This document shows positions 1 through 64,000 of a stretch of DNA of 64,000 bases, piece after piece. The notes beneath the pieces are model-generated. The model had not been told where the DNA came from. It did no database searches and worked only from the letters and a program-made list of their open reading frames with translations. The position numbers were made by a program, and so were the translations under genes. The stretch is taken from positions 1 through 64,000 of the forward strand of contig JAKSYS010000090.1 in the NCBI GenBank assembly GCA_022925895.1. The letters are read 5' to 3'. Every line of letters begins with the position of its first letter. Within the stretch, counting starts at the first letter, position 1. This DNA comes from Fragilaria crotonensis. Lineage: Eukaryota > Bacillariophyta > Fragilariophyceae > Fragilariales > Fragilariaceae.

Positions 1-6
1 CAATAA

Positions 7-7286: not shown

Positions 7287-8578
7287 TTACGATTCTTCAT
7301 CCGTTTCCTTAGCTTTTCCTGTCGCGCAGTCCACCGCAGGCCACCAGAGGGGTGTGTAGGGAAGGTAGCGATATTCCTTTTCCACATCTCCTATTAGAAT
7401 CTTGTTGGTTCGGCTCCAGGGCGCTCCGCCTTCGCCAAATCCAACGCGATCTAATCTCATTTGAGCCAGAATGAGAGATGTTCCCGGCGCAGGTGTGGAG
7501 ACAACTTGACCAATTGTCTTGCCGTCAGCAGTATCGATGATTTTTACTCCAGGAGTGACTGCAACTTCGATCTCCTTGACAAAGTCTTCCGCCTTCTTAA
7601 TGAGAGCTTCCACGTCCTCTTCCTTCTTTTCCTCTTCTTCGTGACCAAAGGATCCCATCGTCATCATTGTCAACATGGCACCAACAGAAGGTGACGATAG
7701 ACTTGGCAGTGGAGGTTGACCTTTCAATTCCTCAAGTAAGGCTTGGCGTCCCTCTTGTATTTGATGGGCCAAGATCCACGGTCTAGGTATCTCCTGTAAT
7801 TTATCCACAAGAATCACTGGCATAATGCGCTTTCGAATAACTCCAGTGTGATGTGTCCGAGCTGTCAACTCCTGACCCAAATAGCAGCCCTTGTGGAAGC
7901 TAACAGCACCCAGCCACTCCTGGTTCGCCTCCAGGGCAGTTTTCCCTGTAAGTTCCTCTCCTTCCGCGATGCCTGAGAACTTTCTCAGCACGTTGTAAGT
8001 CCCTGGGCCGTGGGGAATGATTTCGAGATGAGATCAGGAAGATGTGCCGGAGGATGTTCCGTCGACAAGACACGCAAACCCATGTTGGGATGGCGAGGAT
8101 CAAGGCCAGCCACATAGCCTGAAGGCGGACTACCCCCGTTGAGTGTTCCATAAATCACGTGAGAAGAAACCTTCTCCGAGACATCTGAAATATCTACCTT
8201 GGTCCGTCGCAATTTGTACTGATTGAGATGGGATAGCAGCAAGGCGGAAGAGGTTGAGGTGACGTCTATCAGGTAATGGTCTTCTGATTGCTTCCAGACG
8301 AAGGCGTCAGTTAAAATTCTGCCTTTGTTGTCCAGGAAGCATGTGGACCATAGCTTTGGGTTGAACTCAACCACAGGATCATCTTCAGGGAGATCACTAG
8401 ATCCTTCGATTCTTTGGGCGACTGGGGCTGGCGCAAATTTGTTCAAGTCACTAGTTACCAAGCCTTGTAGATAGGTTGTAGCAGCTGGTCCCTTAACAGA
8501 AATGATTTTTCGCAACGACGGGTTGAATGTTTCATGCCCCTTTCCCCACAATCGTCCAAACCGAGAAGCAGTCGTCAT
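7287..8578 (-). CDS. IBA57: IBA57/CAF17-like Fe-S cluster assembly factor (YgfZ/GcvT family)
   Basis: The family are folate-binding GcvT-like proteins that act with ISCA1/2 in late mitochondrial [4Fe-4S] assembly. The N-terminal part (8578-7985) starts at an ATG and has [22 protein letters not shown], the usual first block. The C-terminal part (from about 8015 to 7287) carries the diagnostic [17 protein letters not shown], containing the KGCYxGQE signature Cys loop, followed by RKRIMP. The two parts lie in different frames. Reading one extra C in the CCCC run at 8012-8015 (minus strand) joins them smoothly into [16 protein letters not shown], as expected. An acidic insert (EEEEKKEED) interrupts the C-terminal domain. 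I see no strong mitochondrial presequence. The break is probably a sequencing error rather than a pseudogene. Confidence 0.85.
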
Positions 8579-10351
8579 GAGCTATCTGATCGACAAAATG
8601 AATCGCTAGTGATCAATTCGTAAAAACGTTCCTGTCCTGTGGCCTGACGTGGATCTGAAATCGATCGTTCCCACCTTTCCCAGAGTTCACAGAATCCGGA
8701 ATCGGGTAATACCGTTATCCGGTATTGGATTCGTAGTGTAGTATTACACGGTATGCCATTGTACAGTACACGTACAAATACCCAGTACCCAGTACTGGAG
8801 TACTAGCAACGCCAGAAACAAGTATTCATATGGATCGGTTTTCACATGCAAAGCGCCAATTATGCCATTGATATTGAGGTGGTCCCATTGTCTACCAAGG
8901 AGCAAGACATGTTTCTCATCAAGGTCAAGTTTGTCCTTGTTGGTAACTGTTTGAAGACACCAGCTACCTTGAAAGTCGCTAAGGTCAACGCATACTGGTC
9001 CCAAGAAGTATCCAAGGAACAATGAACAAAATCAATTCAAACACGTGACTCCACTCATGAGATTGGTCAAGGGTGGACTTGTAGTTTGTAGAGGAAGGTG
9101 TCTCGAACTCGAGCAACAATAAGATTCTTGGGGCTGGAATAGGCTCTCAAATCTCACCACTTCCAATTGCTGCCACAAGTGTCGGTGTCTTTGCCACTGA
9201 AGGCAGCGAGCCGGATCGAATGCATTTATCATGATTGAACTTCAAAGATAGAGGCATTTTTATCAGCTCCTGCCTATCCTTAGTGCATCAGCAGACCATC
9301 GTCACTGCTAAGATGTAGACCTGAAGGACATGATGTTGCCTTCTTGTCCATTGGTGCCACTGTTAACGGTGTGTTGCAATCAGGAATGAGCATCAAGTGA
9401 TACCACATTATTAAATATTCACATCCCTGCCAAATCTGGAGTGACTGTTATTTGGTTGCTGATGCTTTGTAGTAGATGAACCACTGGCTGGCAGCACTGT
9501 TGCAAATGATGTAAACACCCACCAGCACCTCTAAAGTTTTATCAATGTGTTTCATCTGAAGAACCTGAAAAATGTGGTGACAGGTGGTTAGCATAAAGAC
9601 CAATCTCTGGATTAAAACCACCATTAATTAGGTGACATTCTTTGAGATTGTGATCCAAGAATGAAGCTTGAGTGTACCAGGCAGTGGTGGCCTGGCTGGT
9701 GATCAGAATTTGGTTCATCGCACTTCGGACTTGTGTGTGGGCAACCAAGTGCAATTTTGACACCCTTTCCAATGCTTGACATGTAGCCTTCATCATTGGC
9801 TTCCTTCAATGTTGGCTACCAAGGAATTGTATTGCAACAATGACCTCTGTTTGTTGGAGTGGTGACAATGGTAACGCCCTGCAGGCATTGAAACAAGCCC
9901 ATGTCCAGGACTCTATTTAAGCACCATAAACTTCTGTGAAGTCGATTTTGAAGATAATGATGTGCCAACCATGTTAGCTTGGAAGTCAAAATGTTGATGG
10001 AATGATGAAAACAGCGTGGGAACGAGTTGGCCATTCTTGGTGCAGAAATGTACGGTACAGTGGACGACCGGTAATAATGCTATGCACACTCGAGGTTTCG
10101 GAACCCGGAATGTCCAGTGCTCACCGAGCCTTGCACAAAACCAATCAGTCATGTGTCATGTGTCATGTGTCACGTGTCACGTGTCATTTGTCGTGTCTCA
10201 TGTCCAACTATAATGACATTCTCTTATGCTGCAATGACCATGACCGCACTGACAGACCGTAATCCGACATCCGTGACTGGCGTCGTTGGGTGGATTGCGA
10301 CTGAGACTGTATCGCGTTATTGCGTTTCCTTCGTTCTGATTACGCAAAAGC
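8579..10351. other. Intergenic; no gene recognised
   Basis: A GTAC-rich stretch lies at about 8700-8810. A minus-strand 92-codon ORF (8744-9022, with TVTNKDKLDLDEKHVLLLG) looks protein-like but I cannot place it. The rest has only short ORFs with no motif, and a short tandem repeat near 10146-10200 that is listed separately. Confidence 0.45.
10146..10200. repeat. 7-bp tandem repeat (GTGTCAT-like)
   Basis: About eight imperfect copies of the heptamer GTGTCAT/GTGTCAC in a row. The repeat creates spurious Cys/Val/Ser-rich ORFs in all frames. It lies about 150 bp upstream of the surface-protein gene. Confidence 0.8.
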
Positions 10352-24890: not shown

Positions 24891-26113
24891 ATGATGAGAC
24901 TCCTCACTCTATGTCTTGCATTTGTCGCCGTCCATGGCAATGATGGAACTTTATCTGGAGCGCCTTCGAGCACAGTTCAGAACACACCCTCGGTTTCCTT
25001 TCTCCCAGCCTCGGATTCGCCCGCATCTCCAGAACAAGACATCCCAACAACACCAACGACATCGCCAATTACCTCGTTTTCTCCAAGCACGACAAGTGGC
25101 TTTCAAGATCTGAAACCCAATTGCGGAGATTGTTTTTGGTAAGCCTTGTTTGGTGTGTCATATGAACTCACTCGTGCGATGGACCATTCTTACGCTTCGA
25201 TGTTTTTCTCTCACCATCCGATTACAGTATTCCCGATCCGGATTGCCTAGCGCCACAGCTGGGCTTGTCGGACAGCTTCTCAGACTATGTTTCAAGTCTA
25301 TATGCTTCGTTCGTGGCAACCAACTCCATTCCATTGCAGGCGGACGACGGAGGTGATTGTTATCCGTTTGCAGACGTCCTGCAAGGCCTTCTCTCAGCAA
25401 CTGCCTACAACGAGTCATCCTTGCCTCAGTGTACGATGCCAAGTAGTACAGAAGGGTACTGTGCCTTCGTCTTTGAAGATGCCAATGCAAACTTTTCGAA
25501 CTATTCACAGTGTGAGGGACGACGCTACGCCTTGGAAACCTTTGATACGGAGGATGCTGTACCATCCACGGCCTCTATTACGCACAAGGGACAGTGTGGC
25601 GCGTGCAGTTCCGCTCAAGACTTCGCTGCTCGCATCTCGTTGCATGATGAATTTACGAAACTTGCGTTTTCATGTGGAACGATGTACTATACTGGCCGGA
25701 GGTCGTTTACTACTCTCGTCACATGCTTCCGATATGCAGGTTTCACGGAATCTTGTGCAACGCTATGGAGTCACTTGACAGCGACGAGTGGGGAGTTGTG
25801 TGCTGGTGAGTGTCTCGGAGCAAATCCTCAATTCAATGGCGACCCGCCGGAGTGTGCTCTCGAAGAATGCGGTGCATGTGGTATAGAATTTAAGAACGTT
25901 TCTGATGTCCTTGCCGGTCGCGCGCCGTGGAACTCGGGGTTTACAGAGTTCCTCGCTCATCCTTGCAGTAGCTTCTACCCCGTTGTGAATGATCCTTGTC
26001 CTCTTCGACAGGAGGACCGGACCCCAGCGCCTACACCAAAAACCAGTGACGCAACGTCCGGCGGGGCAATGACGGCTGCTTTCTCCATGATATGGCTTCT
26101 AATTCAACTGTAA
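24891..26113 (+). CDS. Secreted cysteine-rich protein, tandem copy C (2 exons)
   Basis: Exon 1 is 24891-25138 (ATG at 24891, alternative at 24894), the intron 25139-25227 (89 nt, GTAAGC...TTACAG), exon 2 is 25228-26113. Spliced length is 1,134 nt, 377 residues, with no break. It has a signal peptide MMRLLTLCLAFVAVHG, a Ser/Pro/Thr spacer and the Cys-rich body with HKGQCGACSSAQD (Gln where other copies have Pro). A PTPAPTPKTSD linker and a hydrophobic tail, AMTAAFSMIWLLIQL, follow. The product is predicted to be on the cell surface or in the wall, by inference from the signal and GPI-like tail. It is closest to copy D, with which it shares its 5' flank. Confidence 0.85.
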
Positions 26114-28673
26114 AATCATCTTGAAGTGTCGCGTAGGCCGAGTAAACGGTACTGTACAGCTCTAGAAAGGTAGTACGCTGTGACCAGGTCCTGAGCGTCC
26201 ACAGAACCTGATTTTTACGTTTTTGCAGATGCCCTCATTCCAATCAATACTCTACGAACACGACGTAGGAAATCATACGTTGTGCCAATTGCCAAGCTTT
26301 GGCAACGGGCAATGCCTTGTGTAAGGCGATGAAAGGACTGAAGTTTAAATTAATTCTATATACTCTTACTCTCTAGTAGGTAGCCTGGAGTCTCGAGCCT
26401 GAACTCGGAGTACTACCTAGTACTTCATCCATCTTGACGCCACATGACAGGACTCCAATTCTTGCTTTGCCATCCCTTCACAAAACTGCCTCCAGCACTG
26501 GCTTGTCCTCCACTGCGGACCACACCGCTTCTTCTGGATTCAATTAAGTAGTACAGATGATGACTGTTCAGCAGGTTTCTCCTTGTAAATGTGGAGAAGC
26601 CGCCGGTCACATCCCCTGAAATCCGTGCTAAGCACACGCCACTCTCATAGTGACTGAGTCCACATCTGAATACAGCTGTTCTTTTCCTCATCAAACTTAA
26701 CTGGTTTTCTCACATATGACAAGTTGAAATGGATTGGAAGGCATATCATGATACTGTGACGAGGCTTTACCATACCCTTGCAAATTAAGTCAACCCCCAG
26801 CCTCCTCTTGATGTCCCGCAGAGACTGCTGATCATTCCAATTTTAATTCACCGGATAGGTTGGCCACTTCTTTATGGCCTTGTTTGAAATTTCTGCGAGG
26901 ATTCCAGACTGCTTTGTTGACATTTCCTCTCCAACGCTTATTCACAAATCCGGTACTACGGCGGCCATTGTTGAAACAGTCACTTTTCTTCACATTGATT
27001 CTCCATGAGCAAAAATTTTGCATGTGTGTAAAAGACAGATGCAAATGTGATTCGATGTGTTCAATACAAAGACTGCCCCTCACAGGAACATGGTTTTGAC
27101 TCTGAATATTTTGCTGTGGCAATTGTTTTGCATCATGCTGAACAGATTGAGTTGAACCTGGAAACATTTTCACAAGCTAAGAATGCTATTACTTTCATAT
27201 AAACAAACTAATTATTAGGGTTGGCTCCGTCCAGTGACCGGTAGGTCATTGGTGAGTACCCCATAATGCTATTACTTTCAGAAGATCATGATTGGAAGAC
27301 AAGACATTCTGTTCCAAATCTGATGTCATGAGAAGCAACATCATAAGGAACTGGTTTCCCTTGCTTTTTGGTCAAGGTATATTGGAGTCAAAAGTGTGGA
27401 GGTCATCACTTGTGATGTGCACAAGATCTTGTCCATCTAGAATTGAGAAGGATATGGCACAACATGGAAAACTGCAATAATGTCCACAAGTCCCAAGAAA
27501 TCTGCTTGCAAAAAATTCATTAAATAAAAGCAACCAAACCTTAAGTAGTGAATGCTGCACAGAAGAAAAAAGACCATAATGAAATCACTCCTTCTATGGC
27601 AATGATGAGGATGATGGCGGCTTCTTTGAAGAACAAGGATGATGAGCATCGATTGCTTGTTCCAAGGCAACACTGCATGGAAGCAAGGAGGACAAGGAGG
27701 TATCACAACCACAACAAATGCATTGCTTGTGGTAGGAAAAGATGAACGCAAGACAAAGGGATGGCTTGATGCGACCACGATGACATCGACAATTTAGACC
27801 ACAACACCCGGCGCCGTCAAGCAGGATTCTTACGACAACAAACAGTTTCTGACAGCAACAAGCACAGTGACTTTGATGGTTTCAACAGCAATCACAACTC
27901 AGGCACTAGCGGTGAAACTGCATTTATATCGAATTATGAAAGAGAAGCAGTTTGAGTGGTTTAAGGACGTGGATGAATAAGTCAATGTTATCAGTGATGC
28001 CTATTAAGCTGCTCCGCCAGGAAATTGTCTCCTAATCCCAAAGTCACTGAAAGACACAGAGTTGGGTCTATCACTGCTGTCAGCATGTGGATTGCTGTTT
28101 GTAGTCAATTTCTCTTGTCAAAGATTGCTGGATGGATTGTTTGTTCTTTCCAGAATTAAGACAAAGCGCATGGCACTGATGGGAGACAGCTAGACAACTG
28201 GTGATGAAATGAAACTGCAGGCACCAACAACAACTAGTCTGTGCTGTATATAGTTGATAACTTACCACCACAAAAGAAGGCCAGGAGTGTCAAGAACTTT
28301 TGGCTGCTGATTCCTCCTTGTTCTGTCCTTAGAGGAGATGAAAAGTTCAACCGGTTGCCAGTGATCAGGTACATAAGAGGTGACAGAAATGATACCATTC
28401 TTGGAACAATGATGGGAACCGTAATTCAGGAAATGGCTCCAACATGCACAGCCATCAGTAATTGTAACAACGCCGGGGAATGTCGTGAATTGACTATGCA
28501 AAAGAACACGAGTCGTAACTGGTGGAAATAGGAACTCCTGAATTATGTTGACAATTTCAGAATGATGGTGTTGAGAAATTGCAACCAATTTGAGGTGAAG
28601 TACTCCATGCAAGTGGATGATTCCAATACATCCAGAGACCGGGAAACAGGCCTTTGGTAATCCAGTTTTTTAG
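26114..28673. other. No gene recognised; relic-like DNA
   Basis: Minus-strand ORFs at 26425-26694 and 26832-27173 (113 codons) and a plus-strand ORF at 28241-28531 look faintly protein-like but match no family I know. A 16-bp direct repeat AATGCTATTACTTTCA occurs at about 27183 and 27264, flanking ~66 bp. Confidence 0.4.
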
Positions 28674-28996
28674 TTACTCTTGGAATGGTGTAATGCTGCA
28701 CATAAGGGTTGTAAATAAAGCAACCCAACTCAATGACAACTATTCCCCAGTTGCTTGTAGGACACATCAAGCTGTCTGCTTCTTTTGGTAAGAAGACGAA
28801 GAGTAGGTCTTGATGCGCATCGGTTAAGGGCGTCACTCTTGGAATGGTGTAGTAATGATGCTCATAAGTGTTGTACTACTAACTAAAGCAACCCAACTCA
28901 ATGACAACTATTCCACAGTTGTAGGATACATCAAGCTGTCTGCTTCTTTTGGTAAGAAAATGAAGAGTAGGTCTTGATGCGCATCGGTTAAGGGCG
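28674..28996. repeat. Tandem direct duplication of ~160 bp
   Basis: Two adjacent units (28674-28832 and 28833-28996) share CTCTTGGAATGGTGTA, AAAGCAACCCAACTCAATGA and GAGTAGGTCTTGATGCGCAT, ending GGTTAAGGGCG, with small indels. Non-coding as far as I can see. Confidence 0.85.
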
Positions 28997-29685
28997 CTAC
29001 GGTTGATGGTGGAAACCAGATTCCTGCTGGTGGTGGGTGGTACATCTTTTACTGGTGCCGGTGACGAGCAGACAGGCAACATCAGCAAAGACAGAGATCT
29101 GCAACGTGAATGTAATTGTTTGCAGAAGTACCATCATGTGTTTATGAAGCGCAGTGTTTGACTCATTGTGGAAGAGTCCGCGATTCAAGTTCTCCGGCGT
29201 GTAACCAAACTTGCTGAGTTCATCCTTCTATCGGAAGCCGATTCTTCCCTGCAAATACTCATTTCTGACACTGCAAATGATAAGCATTGTTGACCTTGGT
29301 CTGGCGAGCTATTAAGCAAACTGGAGTTGAGGTCATGATGACAGGTGCGTTTGCTATTCGTAATGTTGGTGAGTGTTTCTGTTGAGTCCGCGGTAGCGAC
29401 GCTCGTTTGTGAGGATGGCACGTCTTAGTACGTCCACGAAGCTTTGCTTGATTCCAACCCGGCGCAGGTGGAGTCTCTTCTATCGGTACATCAGGCGATT
29501 TCATTAATCGTCAGCATGCACTTGTATCACAAGTAATTACATTGTTGTGTTGGCTACCTTAGGTTCATCTCATGTGGTCGACGTGACACGACGGAGTGGT
29601 GGACAGTGGACAGACGGCACTATCCTTCTTGAATCTTGAATCCTGAATCCTGACCCTTGCCTGTTAATCATCCCGCTTGTAACCT
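28997..29685. other. No gene recognised
   Basis: Short overlapping ORFs only, none with a motif. Confidence 0.45.
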
Positions 29686-30352
29686 TAGAGCATTCTCTAT
29701 GGTGAGGGGGGGTACGACAAAATCTGACCCCCCCCCGGGTATATAATGTACCCTTTGTCAACAAAATAAAAAAGTAGGCATTCTCTATCGTGTACCTATC
29801 TACTAATGGCATACTGGCTAGTTTTATACTGTTATAACTGTCGTAACGTCATCATCTTCGAGTTGTTGAAATGTCGACAAACCAACCAACATTTACCGTC
29901 ATTCTCAACTCCTTGTTTGCCATGGAGATTGAGGACATGGCAAGGAGAAGAAAGGTGATGAGAATGGTGAAAAATGCACAAAATGACAAAGAAAGGTGAA
30001 GAGAAGGGCACTAGCAAGGAGGACAGGAGGGCAAAGAAGTGCAAGGATATGTGTGTTGTTGTACTTGAGTGCGAACACTGTTGTACTGTATGGCAGGTAT
30101 GCATCTTGTTTGTACGAGAAATATATACGATGACCCCGTGGAAAGTGCAATGATCAAATGTACCCCCCCAAATGTACATAGGGTCAGATTTCGAAAATCT
30201 GGCCAGATTTTCGAAATCTGACCCTATGTACATTTGGGGGGTACATTTGTGACCCCCCCAAATGTCAAATATACCCCCCCCATAGAGAATGCTTTTTCCC
30301 AAAAACTCCGAAAAAAAATCAAATGTACCCCATGATAGAGAATGCTCTTAAA
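29686..30352. mobile_element. MITE-like element with terminal inverted repeats
   Basis: The left end reads TTAGAGCATTCTCTATGGTG followed by a G run and TAC. The right end, reverse-complemented, reads TTAAGAGCATTCTCTATCAT then GGGGTAC. Further inverted copies of GCATTCTCTAT occur inside at about 29780 and 30283, so the ends are nested. The interior carries several C7-C9/G7 runs and a large perfect hairpin (listed separately). No transposase; a 156-codon minus ORF inside is a by-product of the repeats. The size (~670 bp) and structure fit a non-autonomous DNA element. A terminal TTA duplication is possible but not certain. Confidence 0.65.
30155..30249. repeat. 95-bp near-perfect palindrome
   Basis: Arms of 48 and 47 nt (30155-30202 and 30203-30249) meet with no loop at GG|CC. 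The only difference I find is a C7 versus G6 run. The arms contain ACATAGGGTCAGATTTCGAA. Transcribed, this would be an almost perfect hairpin. Confidence 0.95.
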
Positions 30353-42936: not shown

Positions 42937-43150
42937 GTATGGGATCCGATTAACTGTCACCTATTTTTCGTCATCGTACGACACGTTACTTAAGGACCTT
43001 GTAGAAAATTTAGCTACAAGTGGAAGCTGTTCAAGATGGGAATTTTGTTTCCTTTCCTCGACTTATTATCTCAATCAATTCACCACGCCTGCCCTCCCTG
43101 CTCTGAATTTGAATTTGAATTCATGCACATATTCACGTACATAAATCTGA
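42937..43150 (+). repeat. ~210-bp dispersed repeat (copy 1)
   Basis: Shares GGATCCGATTAACTG, CGTCATCxTACGACACG, TAGAAAATTTAGCT and a TTTGAATTCAT-containing tail in the same order with 60928-61140 in direct orientation. It follows the IS630-like transposase by about 80 bp and could be a transposon end. Confidence 0.7.
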
Positions 43151-51903: not shown

Positions 51904-51912
51904 GATGGAATG
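51904..51912 (+). repeat. Left 9-bp target-site duplication of MULE
   Basis: GATGGAATG, identical to 60790-60798, directly outside the terminal inverted repeat. A 9-bp duplication is the hallmark of Mutator-like insertion. Confidence 0.95.
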
Positions 51913-51988
51913 GGGAATGCTTAATGCACTAACGATTAAGGCGCTAACTAAAGCCCTAACCCAATCAGAATCCGCTGAGACGTCATCG
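51913..51988 (+). repeat. MULE left terminal inverted repeat
   Basis: Aligned by hand with the reverse complement of 60714-60789 there are about 8 mismatches and one gap over 75 positions. Weaker similarity continues inward for roughly another 70-80 bp (for example a TATTCGAA-like word). Confidence 0.93.
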
Positions 51989-52257
51989 AGGGGCGGGGTC
52001 AAAATAGTCATCGAAGGTGATCCAGATCTTACACATGCATTGAAATATGTATTCGAATCGCACGCCGGCATCGCCACACGCACGTGTTCAATGTCCGCGC
52101 CCAACTTTTGAAATGGAATTGGAATAAAAAGTATTACCAGGTACTTGTACCTGTACTGCAGTATCAAGAATACGTAGCTTACGATTTGTTACATTTTACA
52201 ACCCTCACTGCCTATCCTAACCGTATCAACACGTCTCACTAACATCCAGCCACAACC

Positions 52258-55200
52258 ATGGATAACATTACCGCCCCAGACGAGGTGGACAATAACCTCT
52301 TCTACTCTCCTGCAGAGAAGGAGAATTTGCTTGTTATCAAAAAGGAATTTGACGGAGAGTTCCCAATCGGCACTGCGTTTGCAACTCGAAGGCATGCCAT
52401 CGATGCAATGCGTCGTAAGGCAGCCACGTTCGGATTCTTTATCGTCGACCGCGGTATGGCTGCTTGTTGCTCTGAGACAACTTCAAGAGATTCAACTAAC
52501 ACAAGAAGACAGCATGCTCGCGAATTGCTTGCTCAGGAAATGGAAAAATAGATATGCCTCGAAAATGCGCGCGATCAAAGTGTGGGTGTGAGTTCAAGGT
52601 TAACTTTTACTGCAGCAATGAAGGGCAGTCAAGAAGTTACAATCACTAAAGTGCAATTCATGCATGGAAAGGGGTGTAAGCCTTCAGGAGAGCAATTCAA
52701 GGCTGCATGGACCACTGGTGGACATGCATCAAGGCATCTAGCCCGTACACAGAATTTGAAGCTTCACACCATTGTCCAGCTTTTGGCCAGTGAACAGAGA
52801 CCAAGTGCCCGCATGATGAGAAGCTTGCTTTGCGATATGTTGCCAAAAGATTTCAATGTTTCCAGCCAATTCATCCACAATGTGAAGACCAAGGTAAAGT
52901 TGAAGCTCATGAACGGAGACTTTTATCTTCTCCTTTCAGAGGGAACAGTCTCAGAGGGAGATGCTGAGTTCATTTTAAGTCCTAGTGACAATCTACCTCC
53001 CGAGTATCAGTCTATTGCACAGGAAATTGCCAATGATGTCTTAAAGGAAGCTCTTTCTGATCCTGGAAGTATGTGTTTGGTGGTTCAATTCCTCTGTCGA
53101 CTGCACCAAGAGGATCCATCTTTTGTTTTTGACATTCAACGCAATTAAGAATGATGCAATGGTGGGAATTTGCTGGCAGACAGGTACAATGAGGTTTGAC
53201 TGGGACACCTGTGCCACGTCAATTGCATTAGATGGTATGAAACGGCAGCTCAACCGTGTTTGTTACCCATACATTTCTGTAACTGCTGTTGATGGATACG
53301 GCCAAATGGTTGTATGTGCCGAAGCAATTGTGATATCTGAGCGTATTGAGGCATATGCATGGCTGCTTCGGTGCTGCAGTGCATTTTCATGCAAGAGAAA
53401 GCTTGGTGACATTTGCGCTGTCTTTGGTGATGGACTAGTAACTTGCGATACACTGCTCACATCCCTTGGCATTCAAGACTCATGCACTCTCCTTGACGAT
53501 ACCCACCATCTATTGTCTCCAGAGTGTGGTACATGGTATAAACACTTTGGAGTCAGCAGGTGGAACCATTACGGTGGATTGCTGAGAGCCTTGGTGTTTG
53601 AGTCGTACTCATTGGAAGCGTATGAGACGATAAGATTAAAGATTTTGACACTCATGGAATGTCGTGCGGAGCCTCAAAGTCTCCAAAATTACTTTCACCA
53701 GGTCATTCATGCTGCAAGGAAACGATTTGCTCGCTACTCCGTCCTTGCTACACCGTGTAATGAAGGACGTCTTGGGTCATCGATTGCAGAGGCAAATCAC
53801 TCCTCTTACGTCGCTCGAATTGGGGGTGATAGCTGGGATGATCCTGCAACTCAGGTAAAGGACTGCATTCTTCGCATGCAAGAGCTCAGCAATAAGAGGG
53901 CCAGTTTCCGTGACCAGCACAGACGTCAGTCTGCGGCAAGGAGTCACACCACATCCAACAAAACCCTTGCTTGTATGCTTGTTAAGCTGTCGAAGCGCGG
54001 ATTCAAGATCTGCAAAGAAGAATACACAAAGTCTTCAGAGTACTACTGCTGCGAAGTGCTGATTGATGGCCAAGAACATAAAGAAGTGAGACGGACCGGA
54101 GAATCATCCCATAGTGCTCGCCTTACAAATGGCAAGAACTGCTCATGTGATGTGTTTATTGCATACCAGGTTCAATGCCGACACCTCTTTGCATTTCATA
54201 ACAGAGAATTCAGGATTGAGCTTGTCGATTACAAGTTCCATGCCCAGCCACTCTCAGCATCCCCCCAAACCCAGATTACACCGATATTCTTTCGTCATGG
54301 TGTGTCACCAGGGACTCATATGTTGGCAGTCTTGGGGATAAGTTATTTGGTCAGCACCAGTCTATAGTGCCGCTGTCAATTGCACCAAGCATTCTTCCTA
54401 CTAGCCTACACCAGGCAGGTGAGGTCGGTTGTGACGATGATGAACCTTCTCAAGATTTCGACGATCTTGGTGAAGGCGACGATGTTGTGATGTGCATCAA
54501 CACACAGCCTGACCAGGAGGAGAGTTTCCAACAGGAACGCCATACTGTCAATAACACAGACTCGGTGTGCATCAACAACCGGAAGGTGACTTATCGTGAC
54601 TTTACAGATGTTGCGAACAGTGTTGCAAACCTAGCACTAAGTCTTCCAACTGAAGATGCCAGAATGGAATGCCTTGGTATCTTAGTTTGCTTGAGAGATG
54701 CATTGAGTATGTCTGCCAGTGGTCACCAGACATCTTTCCCATTGAGTGGATTCATGTCATCTGCGGAAGAATTCTTGAGCGCTTTGGGCCAAATGCCGAC
54801 TCAAGGAAAGAAGGAATTTTTGCTGATCACTGCAACAACAGCTTTGAGATGCAGCGACACAATAAAGGCAAAGTGCGACACAAGCGACTTACATCACAGA
54901 ATAAGAGAAATGCTTGCAGAGCAAAAAACAGGCCACCAGCACTGAACGAGAGGATTTCTCAAAACCTCCATTTAATTGATGCACGTAACAGGCAAGCACA
55001 ATGTTCATATTGTGGTTCCTGCGAGCATACCATAAAGCGGTGTTCTGTGATGGACAAGGCAGCTTGGGTTGGGAAGAAGAATAGTGATTCTTGGAATCTA
55101 TGGTATCGTACTTTGGGGAATCCAAGTCACCATGAAGTAGTTATGACTAGTGCTGGGGTCACCTTGAACCTGAGTCGAGAGCTCCTGCAAGACATTCCGC

Positions 55201-55526
55201 TTCCCTCCCATACTATTCGCCATCTGTCTATCAAGGCAGTCTTCTATTCCTCTGAGACTGCTCAGTACTTATCACGACCCCCCGGCATATACAGATCGAT
55301 AAATCAGGAGAACATACAGATTCCATCTCCAGATAACAATATTGTGGAACTCCAGCTCATCGAGCGTGGTGGGAACTTTGTTGCAAAGCAATATGATACA
55401 GCTTCCAGGATAGAGAGGGAAGCTAACACCACATTTTATACGCGAGCAAAGACAGTTCAGAAATGGATGGAAAAGGCATCCTGTGATTCCCATCTGTTTG
55501 TGTATGTCAAGAGAAATGGAACGTGA
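52258..55526 (+). CDS. MULE transposase with SWIM and CCHC zinc motifs (frame broken)
   Basis: The gene reads as one protein of about 1,080 residues when single-base changes are allowed near 52548 (A5), 52630 (G3), 53115 (T5), 54312 (G3) and 54920 (A6). The N-terminus has FATRRHAIDAMRRKAATFGF and a Cys cluster (KCGCEFKV), like the FAR1/WRKY-GCM-type DNA-binding domain of MULEs. The catalytic core (53123-54100) has GICWQTGTMR, IALDGMKRQ (first Asp), AVFGDGLVT (second Asp) and LLDDTHHLL. A SWIM finger, CSCDVFIAYQVQCRH, lies at about 54140-54190. A CCHC zinc knuckle (CSYCGSCEHTIKRC) lies at about 55002-55045, followed by an unknown C-terminal domain. It mobilises the element by cut-and-paste, by family knowledge. 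Confidence 0.85.
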
Positions 55527-56159
55527 CCAAGGTGTATCGATTGACTCGTTTTGGTTTCTGGTGCAATATGTGAGCAGTATCCGACCAACAAGAACTCCCG
55601 CAACATGTGCACATGTAGGGATTCTGTTTGCGTGTCCAACCACCACCAAATGTGTCCAAAATGTGAATTTCTGGTGATTCTGTGTACGTGTCCGAATCTG
55701 TCCGAAATGTGATCTTGTGGCGATTCTGTGCGCATGTCTGACCATCGGATCCATCCGACATGCTATGCACTTGAGGCGATTCCGAGTGCTCTTCGTCCAT
55801 GTCCAATCAACAACTGGAATTGCGCTTCCAACCAGGTATACTTCCTCGCATATTCTCCCCATCACGGTCCTATTCGTTCCGTTGCGGCCAATGACTTCGT
55901 CCAATGAGATCCCTCCAGCAGTTTTCATAGTTGTCATTCACGGTGCAGATTCATTATGTTTATGAATTACGGATTAGTGATTATTTTTGTTCCCAAGGAG
56001 TACTTTATTAATACATGACTTGGGCGAGTACCACGCTACATTTTAATGGAAACCATCATAAATGTTTCCTATAGAAAGAATTGTGTCGGTTGTTAGCAAA
56101 AACTATCAATAGCAGCTATGATAAAGTGACAACAAACAACAGCATGACAAACCAAAAAC
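55527..56159. other. Spacer between the two convergent MULE genes
   Basis: About 55600-55760 carries degenerate tandem copies (~50 bp) of the form GATTCTGTGxxCGTGTCC then AAATGTG. The rest is AT-rich and shows no gene. A 221-codon minus ORF here overlaps the transposase 3' end and is judged a shadow. Confidence 0.5.
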
Positions 56160-59100
56160 TCACGTTGTTACATCCATGTCTGTGACCAACGATTCTTCAA
56201 ACAGATGCATTACCTCTTCGAGAGGTTTTCCAACGGCATACAATCCAAACTCCCCGCCAACAGATATACCGTCATCAAGACTTTCCTCATCCGCATTAGC
56301 ATCACCATCCTCTTCGTCTTCTGAATCTGCAACAATAGTTGTACTAGCCAAACTATTGTCATCATCATCGATCGGTACATCAATCAACAAAGTTTTCTCC
56401 TCCTCCTTTCTCTGTAAATCAAGCATACCATGCTTGATAACTTTCGTCTTTGCTGCAAAGAATGAGCCAAAAACATTACCATGACGATTCATCACAGAAG
56501 TACCATGCCGGATCAGCCGACCATCCCAGCTGATGAGCACTCCATGAGTTAACTTAACAGCAATACCATAGTATTCTCTGTCTGAATCAGGAAAGGTACC
56601 AACCATGTTTGGCAAAACAAAATACCAACCACTTGTTGTTCCAGGTTTTTCTTCTGTCCAAATTGTGAACCCTTGGCACGCATCGTTGACATCATAATGA
56701 GAAGAATTGGATAAATTCACACTCAAATCCATGGTGTGTGTCACACGACACATACCACCATCACCATCCATGCCCTCCAGAGCTGTCATGGAAGCATCAT
56801 TTTCCAAATCCTGAGCTACCCTTAGCACACCAGGGATGGTCACCGAAGCCAGTTTTGACACTGCCACCACCGCCTTGGACAGAAGGTGGACAGAGGATGC
56901 ATCTGATGAGGTACGGTACCGAACCTTGTTTCCAGATGTATCGATCCGACTGCCAATTGGATGCATTTTTCCAAGGTCACCCATTCCAGCTCTGGCACCA
57001 GAGCTGCTGAATTTCTTAACCGCATTGCAGTGATTGTTGATGTCTTGCATAAGTGACTTACAACCCTTGCCAACAACAACAGGTAGGTAAGAGATCCGAA
57101 CAACCGATTTGCGGTGCAATGCCACCTTATTGTTGCCATGTCCTGCTCTGATGAGTACATCAACAAGCAAGTCGATCTCCGCACACTTTGTTGGGTCAAT
57201 TACATAAGTTGTTTTAGGATCAATGTTCTTGTGCAGGAAGCCTCTGGCATAGTGACGACAACCACGTCTTGCGGAATTTGATGTGCAATATGCAAAGCGG
57301 TACAATCCTGTCAGTCGATTGCAGTCATACCGAGTAGACAAATCCTCGCCGTCAACAAAATCAGGTGGGAGTGCAGGACCATCCTCGTCAGTTAGCTGAT
57401 GCGTTTTGTGAACAACTCTTCCCTTCAACCGAGGCGGCATTCCCACACTGCCACAATTGGGAGCCAGAAGATTTGTTTCTGATCGTCGCACACCCCATTT
57501 CCAAACACAGCAGTCACCATCAGCAATCCTCGAAATGTAGGATCCTTTGGAAAACCAGTTGTCAATGGTGCTACGAGAATTGCAACGTAACCTTAGCCAG
57601 TTCATGTCGATGGGAATATGAGAGTTCTTCAAACCGGCCATTTGCTTCCTCCTCTCCCGGTGGCAATAGAACACTCCCGCATCAGGAATAAGGACAACAC
57701 AGGCTCGGAAGAAGTCATCCTCCGGCAGTCTCTTCGGAATTAAACCCACACAATTTTGTTCTTCCCGATAATTCTTATGGGTTTGCTCCTCCTCCCCGAT
57801 GGCAGGTATATAATCAGTTGTTCCCTGCCGAGCCAAATGGAGAGAAACATAGGAATACATCTTCACTGGTGTGTCTAGCAGTTTTGCGGCCTTCTTTCTC
57901 TTAACTTTGTGGAGCTTGATGGTCCGCGCAAGAACACAGTCCATCACCACAATTTCAAAATTGGATTCACCATCAGAGGCGTCATAAATTTGAGCCGGAG
58001 AGTTGCACCTTGAAAAAGAGACATGCTGCAAACCAAAAGTATGCTCAAGGGCCGAAGTAATCCAATCAACCGGGGTCTTCATGATCTTCTCCCTGTACGA
58101 CAGGCTGTGAAAGTAAACTTGGTTTCGTTCCTTTTTTGGAGGTGGTGGCACAAATGAATTGAATGTGGTGAGGAATGTGTCAACAGAATGGAGAGGGAGA
58201 CTCTTCGCAATGACATGCGCCACTTGGGCATGAGTAGCAAGGGAACGGGACGGATGATCGCGAAGAATACCAACAATCGATTCCTTGTTTTCCCATGCCG
58301 CTATCCTTTCCGCCTGACGACACTTGCGTGTGGTGGTCACACCATGCATTTCTTCCGTTTGAGGGTCCATAGGAGTATCCACCCCAAACAGGGGAGGTAC
58401 CTTGTGACAAACAACACGCTTGCAATGAAACCCTCCAGCAACAATTATACTCCTAGCCAAGTCGCATGGCAGCGTTCGTCCGAACGGCCCATTCACACCA
58501 ATGCGACAAGGATTAAGCACTTTCTTTCTCCGCGTCAACTTCGCATCATCATCACAAGGAGTGGAGGACTTGCCAACCTCCTTCCCTTTCGACTTCGTCT
58601 TGGTACTCTTGTTGTGGCGACACCCACTCGTTGACTTGAGAGCAACCAACTTCCCCTCATTGGTCTTTCGTTCCTCGCCGCGCACCGCCCTCACGACATT
58701 GTCATCACAAGACGAGTCGTCAAAAGGAGTGGAGGACTTGCCAACCTCCTTCCCTTTCGACTTCATCTTGGTACTCTTGTTGTGGCGACACCCACTCGTT
58801 GACTTGAGAGCAACCACCTTCCCCTCATTAGTCTTTTGTTCCTCGCCGCGCACCGCCCTCACGACATTGTCATCACAAGACGAGTCATCAAAAGGAGTGG
58901 AGGACTTGCCAACCTCCTTCCCTTTCAACTTCGTCTTGGTACTCTTGTTGTGGCGACACCCACTCGTTGACTTGAGAGCAACCACCTTCCCCTCATTAGT
59001 CTTTTGTTCCTCGCCGCGCACCGCCCTCACGACATTATCATCACAAGACGAGTCATCAAAAGGAGTGGAGGACTCGCCAACCTCCTTCCCTTTTGACTTC

Positions 59101-59385
59101 ATCTTGGTACTCTTGTCGCCGCGACATTGACTTGAGAGCAACCACCTTCCCCTCATTAGTTATTCGTTCTTCCTCGCCGCGCACCGCCCTCATGACATTA
59201 TCATCAAAAGAGGAATCGTCAAAAGGAAATGCGGAATTGACAACCACCTTTCCTTTCCTCTTCAGTTCATTGTCACACACTGTAATCATTTCATTGTCAT
59301 CGGAAGAGGAGACGTCAACATGCGAGGAGCAGGATGCCTCCCCCCACTTGGCACAAAGACGAGGCTTTTTTCCAGAGCGAGCCAT
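56160..59385 (-). CDS. MULE cargo gene: putative 2-oxoglutarate/Fe(II) dioxygenase-like protein
   Basis: About 1,070 residues from ATG 59385 (MARSGKKPRLCAKWGE), with one frame jump near 59125; the longest open part is 56160-59156. The N-terminus has four 56-residue repeats (SSTPFDDSSCDDNVVRAVRG, KSKGKEVGK), Lys/Ser/Asp-rich and probably disordered. A large middle region of unknown fold contains NSARRGCRHYARGF. The C-terminal ~200 residues have NLSNSSHYDVNDACQGF (HxD at about 56691-56699), WYFVLPN, and GVLISWDGRLIRHGTS (distal His about 56506), consistent with the HxD...H iron triad of the 2OG-Fe(II) oxygenase superfamily. A very acidic tail follows. The homologue at 62754-64000 conserves these same residues. 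The substrate is unknown. TET/JBP-like DNA oxidation or histone/protein hydroxylation are both possible. Confidence 0.5.
58561..59232. repeat. 168-bp coding tandem repeat, 4 units
   Basis: Unit starts at 58561, 58729, 58897 and 59065, exactly 168 bp apart. The spacing is a multiple of three, so the repeat encodes the 56-residue repeats of the oxygenase-like protein. Units are nearly identical, implying recent expansion or homogenisation. Confidence 0.95.
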
Positions 59386-59409
59386 AACATAAATATAGGA
59401 GGCATTAAG

Positions 59410-60370
59410 ATGGCAGTAGTGCCGTGTCTTTGCAAATGCAGCAAGCAGTTGAAGGAATTTAATGCCGATCGAGAAAGGTACCGAAACAAAATCCGCAATG
59501 GCCCCGGAAGCTCGCAAGGATGGCAACACTTCACAGCAGTCCAAGGGAGATAATTCGGATACGTCTCGAAACCAAAAGGTATCGCCCAACAATAGCAGAA
59601 GCTTGTGGTAGTACCGTTGTGCCTTTGCAAGCACAGCAGGCTGTTGAAGCGATTAAATGCCGATCGCAATAGGTACCAAAACAAAATCCGTAATGGACCA
59701 CCACGGAAGCTTGCAAGGATGGCAACACTTCACAGCAGTCCAAGGGAGATAATTTGGATACGTCTTGAAACCAAAAGGTATCGCCCAACAATAGCAGAAG
59801 CTTGTGGTAGTACCATCGTGCCTTCGCAAGCACAGCAGGCTGTTGAAGCGATTAAATGCCGATCGCAATAGGTACCGAAACAAAATCAACAATGGACCAC
59901 CGAAGCTTGCAAGGATGGCAACACTTCACAGCAGTCCAAGGGAGATAATTCGGATACGTTTCGAAACCGAAAGGTATCGCCCAACAATAGCAGAAGCTTG
60001 TGGTAGTACCATCGTGCCTTTGCAAGCACAGCAGGCTGTCGTAGTGATTAAATGCCGATCGCGAAAGGTACCGAAACAAAATCCGCAATGGACCACCGAA
60101 GCTTGCAAGGATGGCAACACTTCACAGCAGTCCAAGGGAGATAATTCGGATACGTTTCGAAACCGAAAGGTATCGCCCAACAATAGCAGAAGCTTGTGGT
60201 AGTACCATCGTGCCTTTGCAAGCACAGCAGGCTGTCGTAGTGATTAAATGCCGATCGCGAAAGGTACCGAAACAAAATCCGCAATGGACCACCGAAGCTT
60301 GCAAGGATGGCAACACTTCACAGCAGTCCAAGGGAGATAATTCGGATACGTTTCGAAACCGAAAGGTATC
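59410..60370. repeat. ~196-bp tandem array, about 5 units
   Basis: The marker TGCCGATCG recurs at 59463, 59658, 59857, 60053 and 60249 (spacings 195, 199, 196, 196). The array lies immediately upstream of the oxygenase-like gene and inside the right end of the MULE, so it is in promoter position. Overlapping minus ORFs in it are repeat artefacts. Confidence 0.95.
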
Positions 60371-60713
60371 ACCCTACCAAACGATATGCTGTGATTTGTT
60401 AGGTAGCACTGCTGCTGCTGCTGCGTGCCGCAAATTCGAGCAAAAAATGAACACAACGACGAGGAAATGAAAAAGAGTAAAGGAGGACAAACACGGCTGG
60501 CAAAATCTGTACTACCAAGTACTACAAGTACACCCTGGTACTCGGAGCACACGGGCTACATGTACAAAGAATAAATTTTTGGCACGTGACAGTAACACAT
60601 GCACTCGTACATGTGCCTAAGAGTATGTTTCATATCGAATATGTATAATCCAATTTTTCACACCTCGATTGAATTATTTTATATAGAGAGGGGGTGCAAA
60701 GAACCATCTAGGA

Positions 60714-60789
60714 GTGATGACGTCGTAGCGGATTCTGATTCGGTTAGGGATTAGTTAGCGCCTTAAATTTTAGTGCATTAAGCACTCCC
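60714..60789 (-). repeat. MULE right terminal inverted repeat
   Basis: Reverse complement begins GGGAGTGCTTAATGCACTAA. Pairs with 51913-51988. Confidence 0.93.
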
Positions 60790-60798
60790 GATGGAATG
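60790..60798 (+). repeat. Right 9-bp target-site duplication of MULE
   Basis: GATGGAATG, identical to 51904-51912. Confidence 0.95.
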
Positions 60799-60927: not shown

Positions 60928-61140
60928 GCGGATCCGATTAACTGGCACTCCAATTTCGTCATCATACGACACGCTACTTAGGACCCCCTCTAGAAAATTT
61001 AGCTCCACGTGAAAGCCATTCACAATAGGAATTTCACTTTTGTTTTTTTGGTGTTTTAATCCAACTTAATTTGTCGCAGGCGCTGCCCTCTGACAATTCA
61101 AATTTGAATTCATATTCATAAACAGCTATGTATACTTCCA
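60928..61140 (+). repeat. ~210-bp dispersed repeat (copy 2)
   Basis: Direct-orientation match to 42937-43150, from GGATCCGATTAACTG to a TTTGAATTCAT tail, with many substitutions. It lies about 170 bp beyond the stop of the Ulp1-like gene and may be an end of the second element. Confidence 0.7.
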
Positions 61141-61306
61141 TAGATTCAAGCAACTCAGTCACTAATTGTCACATCTGTTGGCAAGAACATCGGCAATAAC
61201 ACACCTATTCTGATGAATGGTTGAGCGAATTAAATTTCTTCTCTTCACACCATTGTGCACAGGATTGGCCCAGTGAAGGGATTACAACATCACCAGCATG
61301 CAACCA

Positions 61307-62107
61307 TTACAGGCAAGCCAGGTCCTTCCGCAGATTAGTAATAGAACTCTGATCAAAAGTATTCTTTTCTACCCCGATACTGTCAATGAGATGGAGTATT
61401 ACTGCCACAGCAAAGAGGCCGCAGTCAATGTCGTTCTGTTGACTGGGACAGGGATAGTACATCACGTCTTGTGGTGGCAAAAGAGCTCTCTCAAGGTGAA
61501 CCGATTCAAGAACGCCGTCACACACTACAAAGTTCAGTACAAACTGGTGGAAATCTTGAAGGAAGACTGCCAATTCGCTGTGCAGCGCCATCGTTTTTCT
61601 TGTGAGGCGAGTGCATGTCATGTTCAAATCATGGCACTGTATGGAGTTGTAAAATCCAACAGTGCGGCCCCAACATTCCAGAACCACCACAAAGAAATGT
61701 TTTGAAAAGATCAGTGGGATTGCAAGCTTTGAGCCATTGGATATAGTATCGTCACTGTAGCTCTTCATCTTCGCCTTGATGCCATCAATTTTCTTTGTTG
61801 ATTGTTTTGTTTGCACGCCAAGTAGGGCATTCGCTTGCTTAATGAGGAAGGTATTAGTGCCAAGACTACCAACATACATCCGGTCATTGCCCTTTGGCTT
61901 GACCTGAGAAGCAGAAATGGCAGATGGTGATGGAGTAGGATGAGGAGCTCCTCTTTGAATCACGAAGTCCAAGAGGCGAGTACTTAGCATTTTGTTTTCA
62001 CGAAGAGCCCTGACATCGTCTTTTAGCACAGACAGCGAGGCACCAAACCTTGGGTCCCCTGGGAAGTGATAAGGACCAACTCTCGAAGTTTTGTTACTGG
62101 GGTGCAT
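61307..62107 (-). CDS. Ulp1-like (C48) cysteine protease
   Basis: 266 residues from ATG 62107; the frame is also open to a TTG at 62185. The catalytic region shows SKHFFVVVLECWGRTVGFYNSI, giving His and an Asn where the family usually has Asp (yDSL). Downstream CPSQQNDIDCGLFAVAVIL has the oxyanion Gln and nucleophile Cys in the DCG context. Ulp1 proteases cleave SUMO or related modifiers. Plant MULEs of the Kaonashi type carry Ulp1-like genes (established knowledge). Here it sits 650 bp from an oxygenase homologue on the same strand, separated by a tandem array, suggesting one element. The N-terminal half is not recognised. Confidence 0.7.
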   Translation of the reverse strand: MHPSNKTSRVGPYHFPGDPRFGASLSVLKDDVRALRENKMLSTRLLDFVIQRGAPHPTPSPSAISASQVKPKGNDRMYVGSLGTNTFLIKQANALLGVQTKQSTKKIDGIKAKMKSYSDDTISNGSKLAIPLIFSKHFFVVVLECWGRTVGFYNSIQCHDLNMTCTRLTRKTMALHSELAVFLQDFHQFVLNFVVCDGVLESVHLERALLPPQDVMYYPCPSQQNDIDCGLFAVAVILHLIDSIGVEKNTFDQSSITNLRKDLACL

Positions 62108-62282
62108 GATGAGTGCTGATGAACTACAACAGAGAACTTTGGCACTTTGAAACTGGTGGCGTGAAGGGAAAATGGTGTGTGGCAATGCAGTAGCTACAAC
62201 TACTACGGAATGAGTAGAAGAGAGAATTTAGTTGGTAGTGGCAGCGAGTAGAGAAACGACTCAATTGCTAAATACAATGCTG

Positions 62283-62750
62283 CAGAAAGATAACGAGGGT
62301 TTTTGCAAACGACGTGCAAAAAGATAACGAGGGTTTTTGCAACATGGTGAAGAATATAGATGATTTGTCCAATGAGCGTGCAAAAAGAAAACGTGGGTTT
62401 TTGCAAACAGCGCGTGTAACGAGGATATGTCCAACGAGCGTGCAAAAAGAAAACGTGGGTTTTTGCAAACAGCGCGTGTAACGAGGATATGTCCAACGAG
62501 CGTGCAAAAAGATAACGTGGGTTTTTGCAAACAGCGCGTGTAACGAGGATATGTTCAAATAGCGTGCAAAAAGATAACGTGGGTTTTTGCAAACAGCGCG
62601 TGTAACAAGGATATGTCCAAATAGCATGCAAAAAGATAACGAGGGTTTTTGCAACATGTTGAAGGATATAGAGGATTAGTCCAAAGAGCGTGCAAAAAGA
62701 TAATGAGGGTTTTTGCAAACTGCGGGAAAAGTAACAAAAACTTGCTCAAG
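62283..62750. repeat. 62-bp tandem array, about 7 units
   Basis: The unit starts GTGCAAAAAGATAACG and contains GGGTTTTTGCAAACAGCGCG. Starts at about 62378, 62440, 62502, 62564, 62626 and 62690, with an earlier degenerate unit from 62283. Each unit has a small GTGCAAAAA/TTTTTGCAA inverted repeat. It separates the Ulp1-like and oxygenase-like genes. ORFs on the minus strand here are repeat artefacts. Confidence 0.95.
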
Positions 62751-62753
62751 AGT

Positions 62754-64000
62754 TTACTTGAGGGCCTTACCGGCTGCCAAAATTTTCTGCTTTGCCGAAG
62801 TGAAGGTCCCGAAAAGATTGTTTTTGAAGTGCTGTCGGTGTTTCCCCACCCTCTCACCATCCTGACCATCAGGCATGGAGATGGAGGTGCAGTGACGCAA
62901 TGCTCTGCCATCCCAACTGATTGCTGCCCCATGACTAAGGCGAACCGCAAGACCAGAAAATTGTACTCCATCAGGACGCTTCCCATGCACGTTTGGCATC
63001 ACAAAGTACCAATTGGAGCCCATGGACGGAATTTCCTCAGTCCACACAGCAAAGCCCTGTGATGCATCATGGACGTCAAAATGGGATGAATTTCCCAAAT
63101 TAACACTCGTATCAATGGTAAAGCCAACTCGTTTCCCATCAGCTCCATCCATTGGCTCTACCGGTTCCAATCCAGAATCTGCCTCTGTGCTCAGGATCAC
63201 GCTTAGGACATCTGGGAAACATAAATGACCAATTTCATGCATCGCAACAACCATATCGCGAAGTGTTTGGTGTGGAACACAGTCATTGGTGACAAATGGG
63301 ACGGCGACAAGGTCGCCATTCTGCACCCTGGTACCTAGAGCATGCATTGACCCGACATCGCCTGTGTTATTCCGTACGCTTGGAGAGGAAAGTGCCTCAT
63401 GAATTGCAGAATTGCAGCTAGTGATACTCTGCAACCATCCCTGAACTTTCTGACCGCCAGAACTTTTAGTCTTGCCAAGCTTGACAGCGTGCCTGACTTG
63501 GAGAACAGTGTGCATGTTCAGGCAATTTCCTGAGGGTTCCCCATCAATCATCACATCAATAATTGGATTGATTGTGGGGTCGAGGACCCAACACGTGCTG
63601 GGCAAATTGAAATGGTGGCATCCTGTTGCGTAGTTACGACCACCCTCTCTTGCCGAGTTTGAAAACGCCAATTTGTGGTTGTATAACAATTTAAGCTCCT
63701 CTAGTGGCCATGTGCCAGCATCCTCTCCTGAAAACACATCTGGTGGCATTTTCGGGCCATTGCTGTCGAGACAATGGCCTGCCCGGTAGATGAGACTGTG
63801 GTCGTCAGGTTGTAGCCCCAAAAAGCCAAGTTTCCACACAGAAATAAGCTTTTTGTCATCCTGGAACAAACCCTTGACATAACTATCTTCTCCAAACGTA
63901 TAGTAGGGGGTACCGTCCGGATTATGACAACGTTTGAGGCGTAGCCAACTCATCGGAAGTGGGATCAATGATTTGTCAGAACCAACATCGGGATGCACTC
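62754..64000 (-). CDS. Second 2OG-Fe(II) dioxygenase-like homologue, 5' end outside window
   Basis: 414 residues are visible and the gene continues beyond base 64000. It matches the C-terminal half of the MULE cargo protein block by block: IPLPMSWLRLK, MPPDVFSGEDAG, NSAREGGRNYATGCHHFN, VLDPTINPIIDV. It then shows NLGNSSHFDVHDASQGF (HxD at about 63075-63083), WYFVMPN and GAAISWDGRALRHCTS (distal His about 62895). The HxD and His are conserved while overall identity is modest, which supports purifying selection on the putative metal site. It lacks the acidic tail of the first copy and ends near the 62-bp array. It is probably cargo of a second transposon together with the Ulp1-like gene. Confidence 0.5.
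   Translation of the reverse strand, partial: VHPDVGSDKSLIPLPMSWLRLKRCHNPDGTPYYTFGEDSYVKGLFQDDKKLISVWKLGFLGLQPDDHSLIYRAGHCLDSNGPKMPPDVFSGEDAGTWPLEELKLLYNHKLAFSNSAREGGRNYATGCHHFNLPSTCWVLDPTINPIIDVMIDGEPSGNCLNMHTVLQVRHAVKLGKTKSSGGQKVQGWLQSITSCNSAIHEALSSPSVRNNTGDVGSMHALGTRVQNGDLVAVPFVTNDCVPHQTLRDMVVAMHEIGHLCFPDVLSVILSTEADSGLEPVEPMDGADGKRVGFTIDTSVNLGNSSHFDVHDASQGFAVWTEEIPSMGSNWYFVMPNVHGKRPDGVQFSGLAVRLSHGAAISWDGRALRHCTSISMPDGQDGERVGKHRQHFKNNLFGTFTSAKQKILAAGKALK

Follow-up and report, generated by a model that had tools for sequence, protein, structure and literature searches.

The window, a stretch of 64,000 nucleotides from the diatom Fragilaria crotonensis (positions 1 to 64,000 of contig JAKSYS010000090.1, assembly GCA_022925895.1), contains a complete Mutator-like element (MULE), here named MULE-1, which carries a large gene, gene A, next to its transposase gene. 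Modelling of this gene and of a second one nearby, gene B, indicates that both very probably encode divergent Fe(II) dioxygenases of the TET/JBP group. It is virtually certain that the TET-like gene is transposon cargo. The gene has been exchanged between two transposon superfamilies, MULE and Plavaka. As an explanation for its presence there, we somewhat favour a cargo enzyme of the TET/JBP type that would relieve silencing of the element through oxidation of 5-methylcytosine (5mC).

Gene A and the element that carries it

The main features of MULE-1 and of gene A are as follows (TIR, terminal inverted repeat; TSD, target-site duplication; 2OG, 2-oxoglutarate).

51904-51912: left 9-bp TSD, GATGGAATG, identical to the right copy
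51913-60789: MULE-1, whole element, 8877 bp
51913-51987, plus strand: left TIR of MULE-1, beginning GGGAATGC
52192-55526, plus strand: MULE-1 transposase gene, split into several frames in the window copy
56160-59156, minus strand: gene A, TET/JBP-like dioxygenase, open frame of 998 amino acids, convergent with the MULE-1 transposase gene
56397-57749, minus strand: conserved core of gene A, residues 470-920, including the double-stranded β-helix
56475-56477, minus strand: codon N894 of gene A, putative equivalent of the Arg that binds the 2OG C5 carboxylate
56505-56507, minus strand: codon of the distal His, H884, in WDGRxIRH[CG]TS
56682-56684, minus strand: codon D825, where TETs have their cytosine-N4 contact
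56691-56699, minus strand: codons H820-x-D822 (HxD, presumed Fe ligands)
58549-59126, minus strand: 168-bp (56-amino-acid) coding tandem repeats, N-terminal part of gene A
60716-60789, minus strand: right TIR of MULE-1
60790-60798: right 9-bp TSD, GATGGAATG

The two TIR arms of MULE-1 are 88-89% complementary, and related TIRs are found in regions L009, L011, L012 and L013. Perfect 9-bp TSDs, all different, flank the four related elements of which both ends were seen; these are GATGGAATG in the window, AGTTGAAGG on contig C776, CCATTTTCG on C63 and GGTTCATCG on C592. The copy at C592:65870-76319 is 97% identical to MULE-1 over 7.4 kb and has another TSD. The different TSDs, together with this C592 copy, indicate that the gene moved along with the element. 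Long TIRs and a 9-bp duplication fit a MULE. The original prediction, made from the letters of the window, had placed an oxygenase gene inside a MULE, and this is borne out by a bounded element with TIRs and a perfect TSD on either side of gene A. The homologue of the MULE-1 transposase on C63 is a single open frame of 1114 codons, to which the pieces in the window are 60-84% identical. The profile PF10551 scores 20.6 bits (E 6.3e-4) in the window copy, under the cut-off of 27.6, and 17.8 bits in the C63 copy; the SWIM match is weak.

The motifs SSHYDVNDA (H820 and D822), WYFVLPN (residues 844-850) and SWDGRLIRHGTS (H884) lie in the minus-strand gene where they had been located. The span first proposed for the gene, 56160..59385, holds for its lower end and for the minus-strand frame. 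Its upper end needs correction, as 59385 is the ATG of another frame (MARSGKKPR..., open reading frame (ORF) 59056-59634), which connects to the 998-residue frame only if the reading frame breaks inside the N-terminal tandem repeat. The break is at the upstream limit of the 168-bp repeat array. Besides this coding array (58549-59126), the window has tandem arrays at 59501-60390, with units of about 196 bp, and at 62297-62724, with 62-bp units.

Predicted fold and active site

The model of gene A is a double-stranded β-helix, and its top matches among solved structures are TET/JBP enzymes. The same is true of gene B (62754-64000), which was modelled separately. For gene A, the rows of TET/JBP enzymes in the structure comparison have Z scores of 15.3-19.4, while those of FTO/AlkB reach at most 11.8; for gene B the corresponding values are 14.6-18.2 and at most 11.9. 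The TET/JBP rows thus exceed the FTO/AlkB rows by some 3 to 8 Z units. The best matches are human TET2, NgTET1 and CcTet, with which the structural alignments give about 8-12% identity. The two predicted structures agree with the fold and class that had been proposed from the sequence, and neither a different fold nor a loss of conservation at the HxD or the distal His was found.

The active site was compared in an alignment of 106 rows, made up of genes A and B and 104 database matches. Among the filled rows, His is found at H820 in all 103, Asp at D822 in all 102, and His at H884 in 99 of 101, so that the pattern is not a chance arrangement. The presumed metal triad HxD...H is complete in all 99 rows in which the three columns are filled, seven of the 106 being dropped for gaps. 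The distal His stands in the signature WDGRxIRH[CG]TS of the diatom family. Three residues past the Asp of the HxD, where an Asp or Asn is expected in TET/JBP, D825 is Asp in 100 of 102 filled rows. The equivalent residues of CMD1 (D350), NgTET1 (D234) and TET2 (N1387) hold the N4 of cytosine, according to the accessible text of the CMD1 paper (PMC7854593). Other conserved columns, counted over filled rows, are R880 (100/100), R883 (95/101) and K903 (93/99).

In five further proteins, P0105, P0104, P0097, P0098 and P0100, a TET-like core is joined to an HMG box, a Tc5 transposase helix-turn-helix, a RING finger or DUF6824. Such proteins suggest fusions that target DNA or chromatin.

Copies, transposase partners and exchange between superfamilies

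The assembly searched has 62.1 Mb in 881 contigs. The search scored 46 of 421 candidates and gave 50 matching stretches, which were merged into 43 loci; this number is a minimum and includes fragments (139 residues on C34). Five transposase queries were then used to look for partners at a distance of up to 6 kb. A transposase match is present at 38 of the 43 loci, and in all 38 the two genes are convergent, tail to tail. The partners are MULE transposases at 8 loci (6 MULE-1, 2 MULE-2) and Plavaka transposases at 30 (21 PlavakaA-type, 9 PlavakaB-type), the last two names being labels of this analysis for partners like those on C529 and C829 and like that on C30, respectively, and not those of Kojima. 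The gene is therefore MULE cargo, as originally predicted, yet it is not specific to MULEs, as 30 of the 43 loci lie beside a CACTA-like Plavaka transposase and 8 beside a MULE transposase. No match was found within 6 kb at C490, C183, C754, C34, whose flanks were not fetched, and window gene B. With fewer partner queries, 23 of the 43 loci had a partner and 22 were convergent; the exception, C160, has a closer convergent partner. By chance, 1.4 of the 43 loci would be expected near a transposase, an estimate that treats near-identical copies as independent.

The Plavaka assignment starts from the partner on C529, which matches PF18759 (Plavaka) with 31.8 bits (E 1.1e-7; cut-off 26.3). The partners on C829, C134 and C30 are blastp homologues of it and have no PF18759 match above the cut-off, the C829 half scoring 20.9 bits and C30 giving no match. 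The element on C30 has the ends CATCA...TGATG (CATCAGGAAGCCCAT.../...ATGGGCTTCCTGATG). According to the available part of Kojima 2025 (PMC12730594), PlavakaB has 5'-CATCA..TGATG-3' termini and a TSD of 2-3 bp; no matching TSD was seen at C30, the one Plavaka copy checked. For Kyakuja-Dileera-Zisupton (KDZ) transposases, PF18758 and PF02992 gave no match in the genome, in searches that had no control match either, so that absence is not shown.

Three copies borne by PlavakaA-type elements (L021:4265-8137, L024:3852-8333 and L022:4111-7563; frames of 1151-1494 codons) have a long C-terminal extension with no Pfam match, in which HLxxASxxLVxCPHLQF recurs. C30:100000-109999 (L015) also has, some 3 kb beyond the Plavaka element, a second and inverted copy of the PlavakaB-type transposase, with 74% identity over 487 bp.

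A tree was made of 30 of the 43 loci, in which C177 forms a long branch, window gene B is unlabelled, and C22 is labelled as having no partner, its Plavaka partner 5.9 kb away having been found later. This tree requires the gene to have switched between MULE and Plavaka three times or more, and a single clade of MULE-borne genes is rejected (approximately unbiased test, AU p 7.6e-55). MULE-1 bears two deeply different versions of the gene, with five loci in one clade and C108 within the clade of gene B (support 100/99). MULE-2 also bears two versions, one of which is the broken, long-branched C177. The ratio of non-synonymous to synonymous substitution (dN/dS), obtained for 11 pairs, is 0.14-0.35 in six, and three are saturated. 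For the recent pair of the window contig, C873, and C592, it is 0.69 over 725 codons and 0.22 over 242. In most measurable pairs, the protein is under purifying selection.

Gene B belongs to a second element, MULE-2, which begins about 140 bp past MULE-1, so that two unlike MULEs with TET-like genes adjoin (MULE-2 part, 60929-64000).

60929-61322, plus strand: left end of MULE-2, 96% identical to C592:57516-57905
61307-62185, minus strand: Ulp1/C48 peptidase-like ORF (PF02902 E 1.8e-5, above the cut-off)
62754-64000, minus strand: gene B, second TET/JBP-like gene, continuing beyond the window; the match extends to C873:64076

The Ulp1/C48-like ORF occupies the place that the transposase has in the C592 copy of MULE-2; that transposase, beside a B-type gene, matches PF10551 with 46.3 bits (E 6.1e-12). 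Between C873 and C592, the neighbourhoods of genes A and B differ in how the two elements are ordered and oriented, a point that bears on whether they share an origin. Another stretch of the window, 42942-43045, matches the left end of MULE-2 (C592:57517-57621) at 80% and may mark the end of a further, non-autonomous element.

Proposed role, alternatives and known systems

In the explanation that we favour, gene A, and gene B beside it, would be working accessory genes of DNA transposons, in this case of MULEs. The transposon would make the enzyme together with the transposase. The enzyme would bind DNA and flip out a modified base, most likely 5mC, whose oxidation would take place at an Fe(II) with H820, D822 and H884 as ligands. 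In this way the silencing mark on methylated copies of the element would be removed or altered, which would allow the transposase to be expressed and the ends of the element to be used. Catalysis, the substrate base, the co-substrate, action in the nucleus and the benefit against silencing are all points that we infer. Action on a DNA base is likely; the assignment of 5mC as this base is held with more modest confidence, and relief of silencing appears to be the purpose rather than not.

The methylation context can be described from the genome and from the literature. The profile of cytosine-C5 methyltransferases, PF00145, matches 13 stretches, which correspond to fewer genes and possibly include contaminant contigs. 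In the sampled elements TpG+CpA is 1.30-1.49, compared with 1.12-1.21 in seven 5-kb segments elsewhere in the window, and these ranges are separate; CpG is 0.56-0.93 and 0.80-1.04, respectively, with overlapping ranges. The comparison parts are window 10-25 kb and 30-50 kb, where genes are unannotated. This bias would fit CpG methylation of transposons, although the stretches at 1-10 kb and 25-30 kb of the window are likewise poor in CpG. In Phaeodactylum tricornutum, where 5mC represses young transposable elements, cells that lose DNMT5a also lose 5mC and overexpress these elements, as stated in the accessible text of PMC9998398. For F. crotonensis at pH 9.2, the available part of PMC9732472 describes all 48 differentially expressed 'mobilome' genes as up.

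Several results weigh against this explanation. The MULE-1 transposase of the window is broken, and the dN/dS of 0.69 comes from the recent pair that this copy forms with C592. Tet_JBP is absent from the Pfam scans of genes A and B, and its profile, PF12851, has no match in the whole genome. CMD1 was matched by phmmer with E 0.55 and then 0.23, neither of them significant, and is a lead only; the second alignment with gene A superposes the HxD..D. Pfam, PHROGs and NCBIfam give no significant family for either gene, the closest being one PHROG of unknown function (E 0.077), and a profile search of the Protein Data Bank sequences gave low-complexity matches only. Because no sequence profile matches significantly, the family is identified by structure, and because Tet_JBP does not match, it can be a member only as a divergent subfamily. 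In the active site, the Arg that binds the C5 carboxylate of 2OG (R1896 in TET2, R289 in NgTET1) seems to be replaced by His or Asn. Column 894 has His in 59 rows, Asn in 24, Asp in 5, Phe in 4, Tyr in 3, Ser in 2, Lys in 1 and a gap in 6 of the 106 (two rows unlisted). The register was chosen by eye, using the predicted final strand and the TET2 letters around R1896, and the replacement is a lead rather than a proven change. K903 or R880 might substitute for this Arg. The base-contact His or Arg two residues past the stacking aromatic also seems to be missing, with A902 at that place. The CpG observed/expected ratio of five transposase genes of TET-carrying elements is 0.58-0.80, that of seven Plavaka transposases without a detected oxygenase neighbour 0.56-0.93; the carriers are not less CpG-depleted than the presumed non-carriers, so that no footprint of self-protection is seen. 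Finally, a review on Haslea ostrearia (PMC9033121) states in its accessible text that 5-hydroxymethylcytosine (5hmC) is absent there and in diatoms generally, and suggests that a TET may be lacking since 5hmC is not seen; the same review cites a thesis that claims TET homologues in P. tricornutum.

The apparently altered co-substrate site makes the family a candidate for new base chemistry. An enzyme of the same fold group could work with another co-substrate, like CMD1 with vitamin C, or could produce a bulky modified base that serves transposon DNA as a mark or a protection, rather than erase 5mC. We consider this unlikely, if deserving attention: the register of column 894 lacks a superposition, the residues that bind 2OG differ among subfamilies according to the available text of the CMD1 paper (PMC7854593), and the 2OG users TET2 and CcTet match equally well or better in structure. 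A bolder version, which we also regard as unlikely and slightly more so, is a novel diatom branch of transposon-borne TET/JBP enzymes with no standard 2OG pocket, which would write a modified form of cytosine or thymine, so far unseen, into transposon DNA and be shared and traded by two superfamilies. A demethylase of RNA or of N6-methyladenine, with a role like that of FTO/AlkB, would help the element via its transcripts or via N6-methyladenine and not via 5mC; the lower Z scores of the FTO/AlkB rows and the correspondence of D825 to the cytosine-N4 contact of TET make it quite improbable.

An oxygenase that acts in transposition itself, for example by modifying ends or target, would be in line with the convergent pairing at all 38 partnered loci and with the lack of a self-protection footprint in CpG. 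This seems very improbable, since one gene serves unrelated transposases; moreover, the oxygenase is undetected beside PlavakaA-type transposases on C87, C249, C364 and C869 and PlavakaB-type ones on C518, C137 and C170, an absence that is likely with 46 of 421 candidates scored. MULEs are well known to capture host genes, and gene A could be a captured generic 2OG oxygenase, such as a hydroxylase of proteins or small molecules, that is a useless passenger; the lack of a match to any TET/JBP sequence profile would agree with this. The structural ranking in favour of TET/JBP, a dN/dS well under 1 in most measurable pairs, the triad intact in every scored row and the retention of the gene on two superfamilies make a passenger highly improbable. 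A viral source is without support, as two scans of viral contigs gave no relative.

Transposon-carried TET/JBP genes in fungi were reportedly described by Iyer et al. in 2014. The original prediction had named KDZ elements as the fungal carriers; they are carriers, and the accessible text of Kojima 2025 (PMC12730594) lists others as well, the carriers of fungal TET+ transposons being Dileera, Kyakuja, Zisupton, hAT, Harbinger, IS3EU, EnSpm, ESTA, Plavaka and Helitron. In the diatom, the carriers found are MULE and Plavaka. The fungal transposons are like the diatom family in having a TET/JBP-fold accessory gene, many copies, exchange between superfamilies and Plavaka carriers, and structure was also what revealed their most divergent type, PE. 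The diatom family differs in its host and in its MULE carriers; MULE is not in that list, and MuDR occurs twice in the available text, both times for other accessory genes. Furthermore, the hallmark of PE is HxE (PMC12730594), whereas the diatom family has HxD, with the Asp invariant in filled rows. CMD1, the Chlamydomonas synthase of 5-glyceryl-methylcytosine (5gmC), keeps an Arg at the 2OG position, R410, which aligns with the 2OG Arg and points away, where the diatom family has His or Asn; the accessible part of its paper does not mention transposon carriage (PMC7854593). TET2, NgTET1 and CcTet share the metal triad with the diatom family, in which neither their 2OG Arg nor their base-contact His is seen at the positions assigned here. 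Sequence searches gave no significant connection with known TET/JBP proteins.

TET/JBP-carrying transposons in fungi, Plavaka included, are thus already known. No diatom host or MULE carrier of a TET/JBP gene was found in the open-access literature searched, and, as far as this literature goes, the diatom host, the MULE carriers, the unmodelled subfamily and the apparently altered co-substrate site are new. The findings suggest that transposons across eukaryotes have repeatedly recruited an enzyme of the DNA-demethylation type as a means against silencing, and that in a diatom, as in fungi, the gene passes from one superfamily to another. As no current Pfam model matches the family, TET annotation based on profiles would miss it; its members are named candidate genes for the question of whether diatoms have TET enzymes.

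Elsewhere in the window, positions 1-10000 and 25001-30000 are poor in CpG (0.51-0.70) and rich in TpG/CpA, resembling the transposons in this composition, and a short Ulp1-like match is located at 27059-27178.

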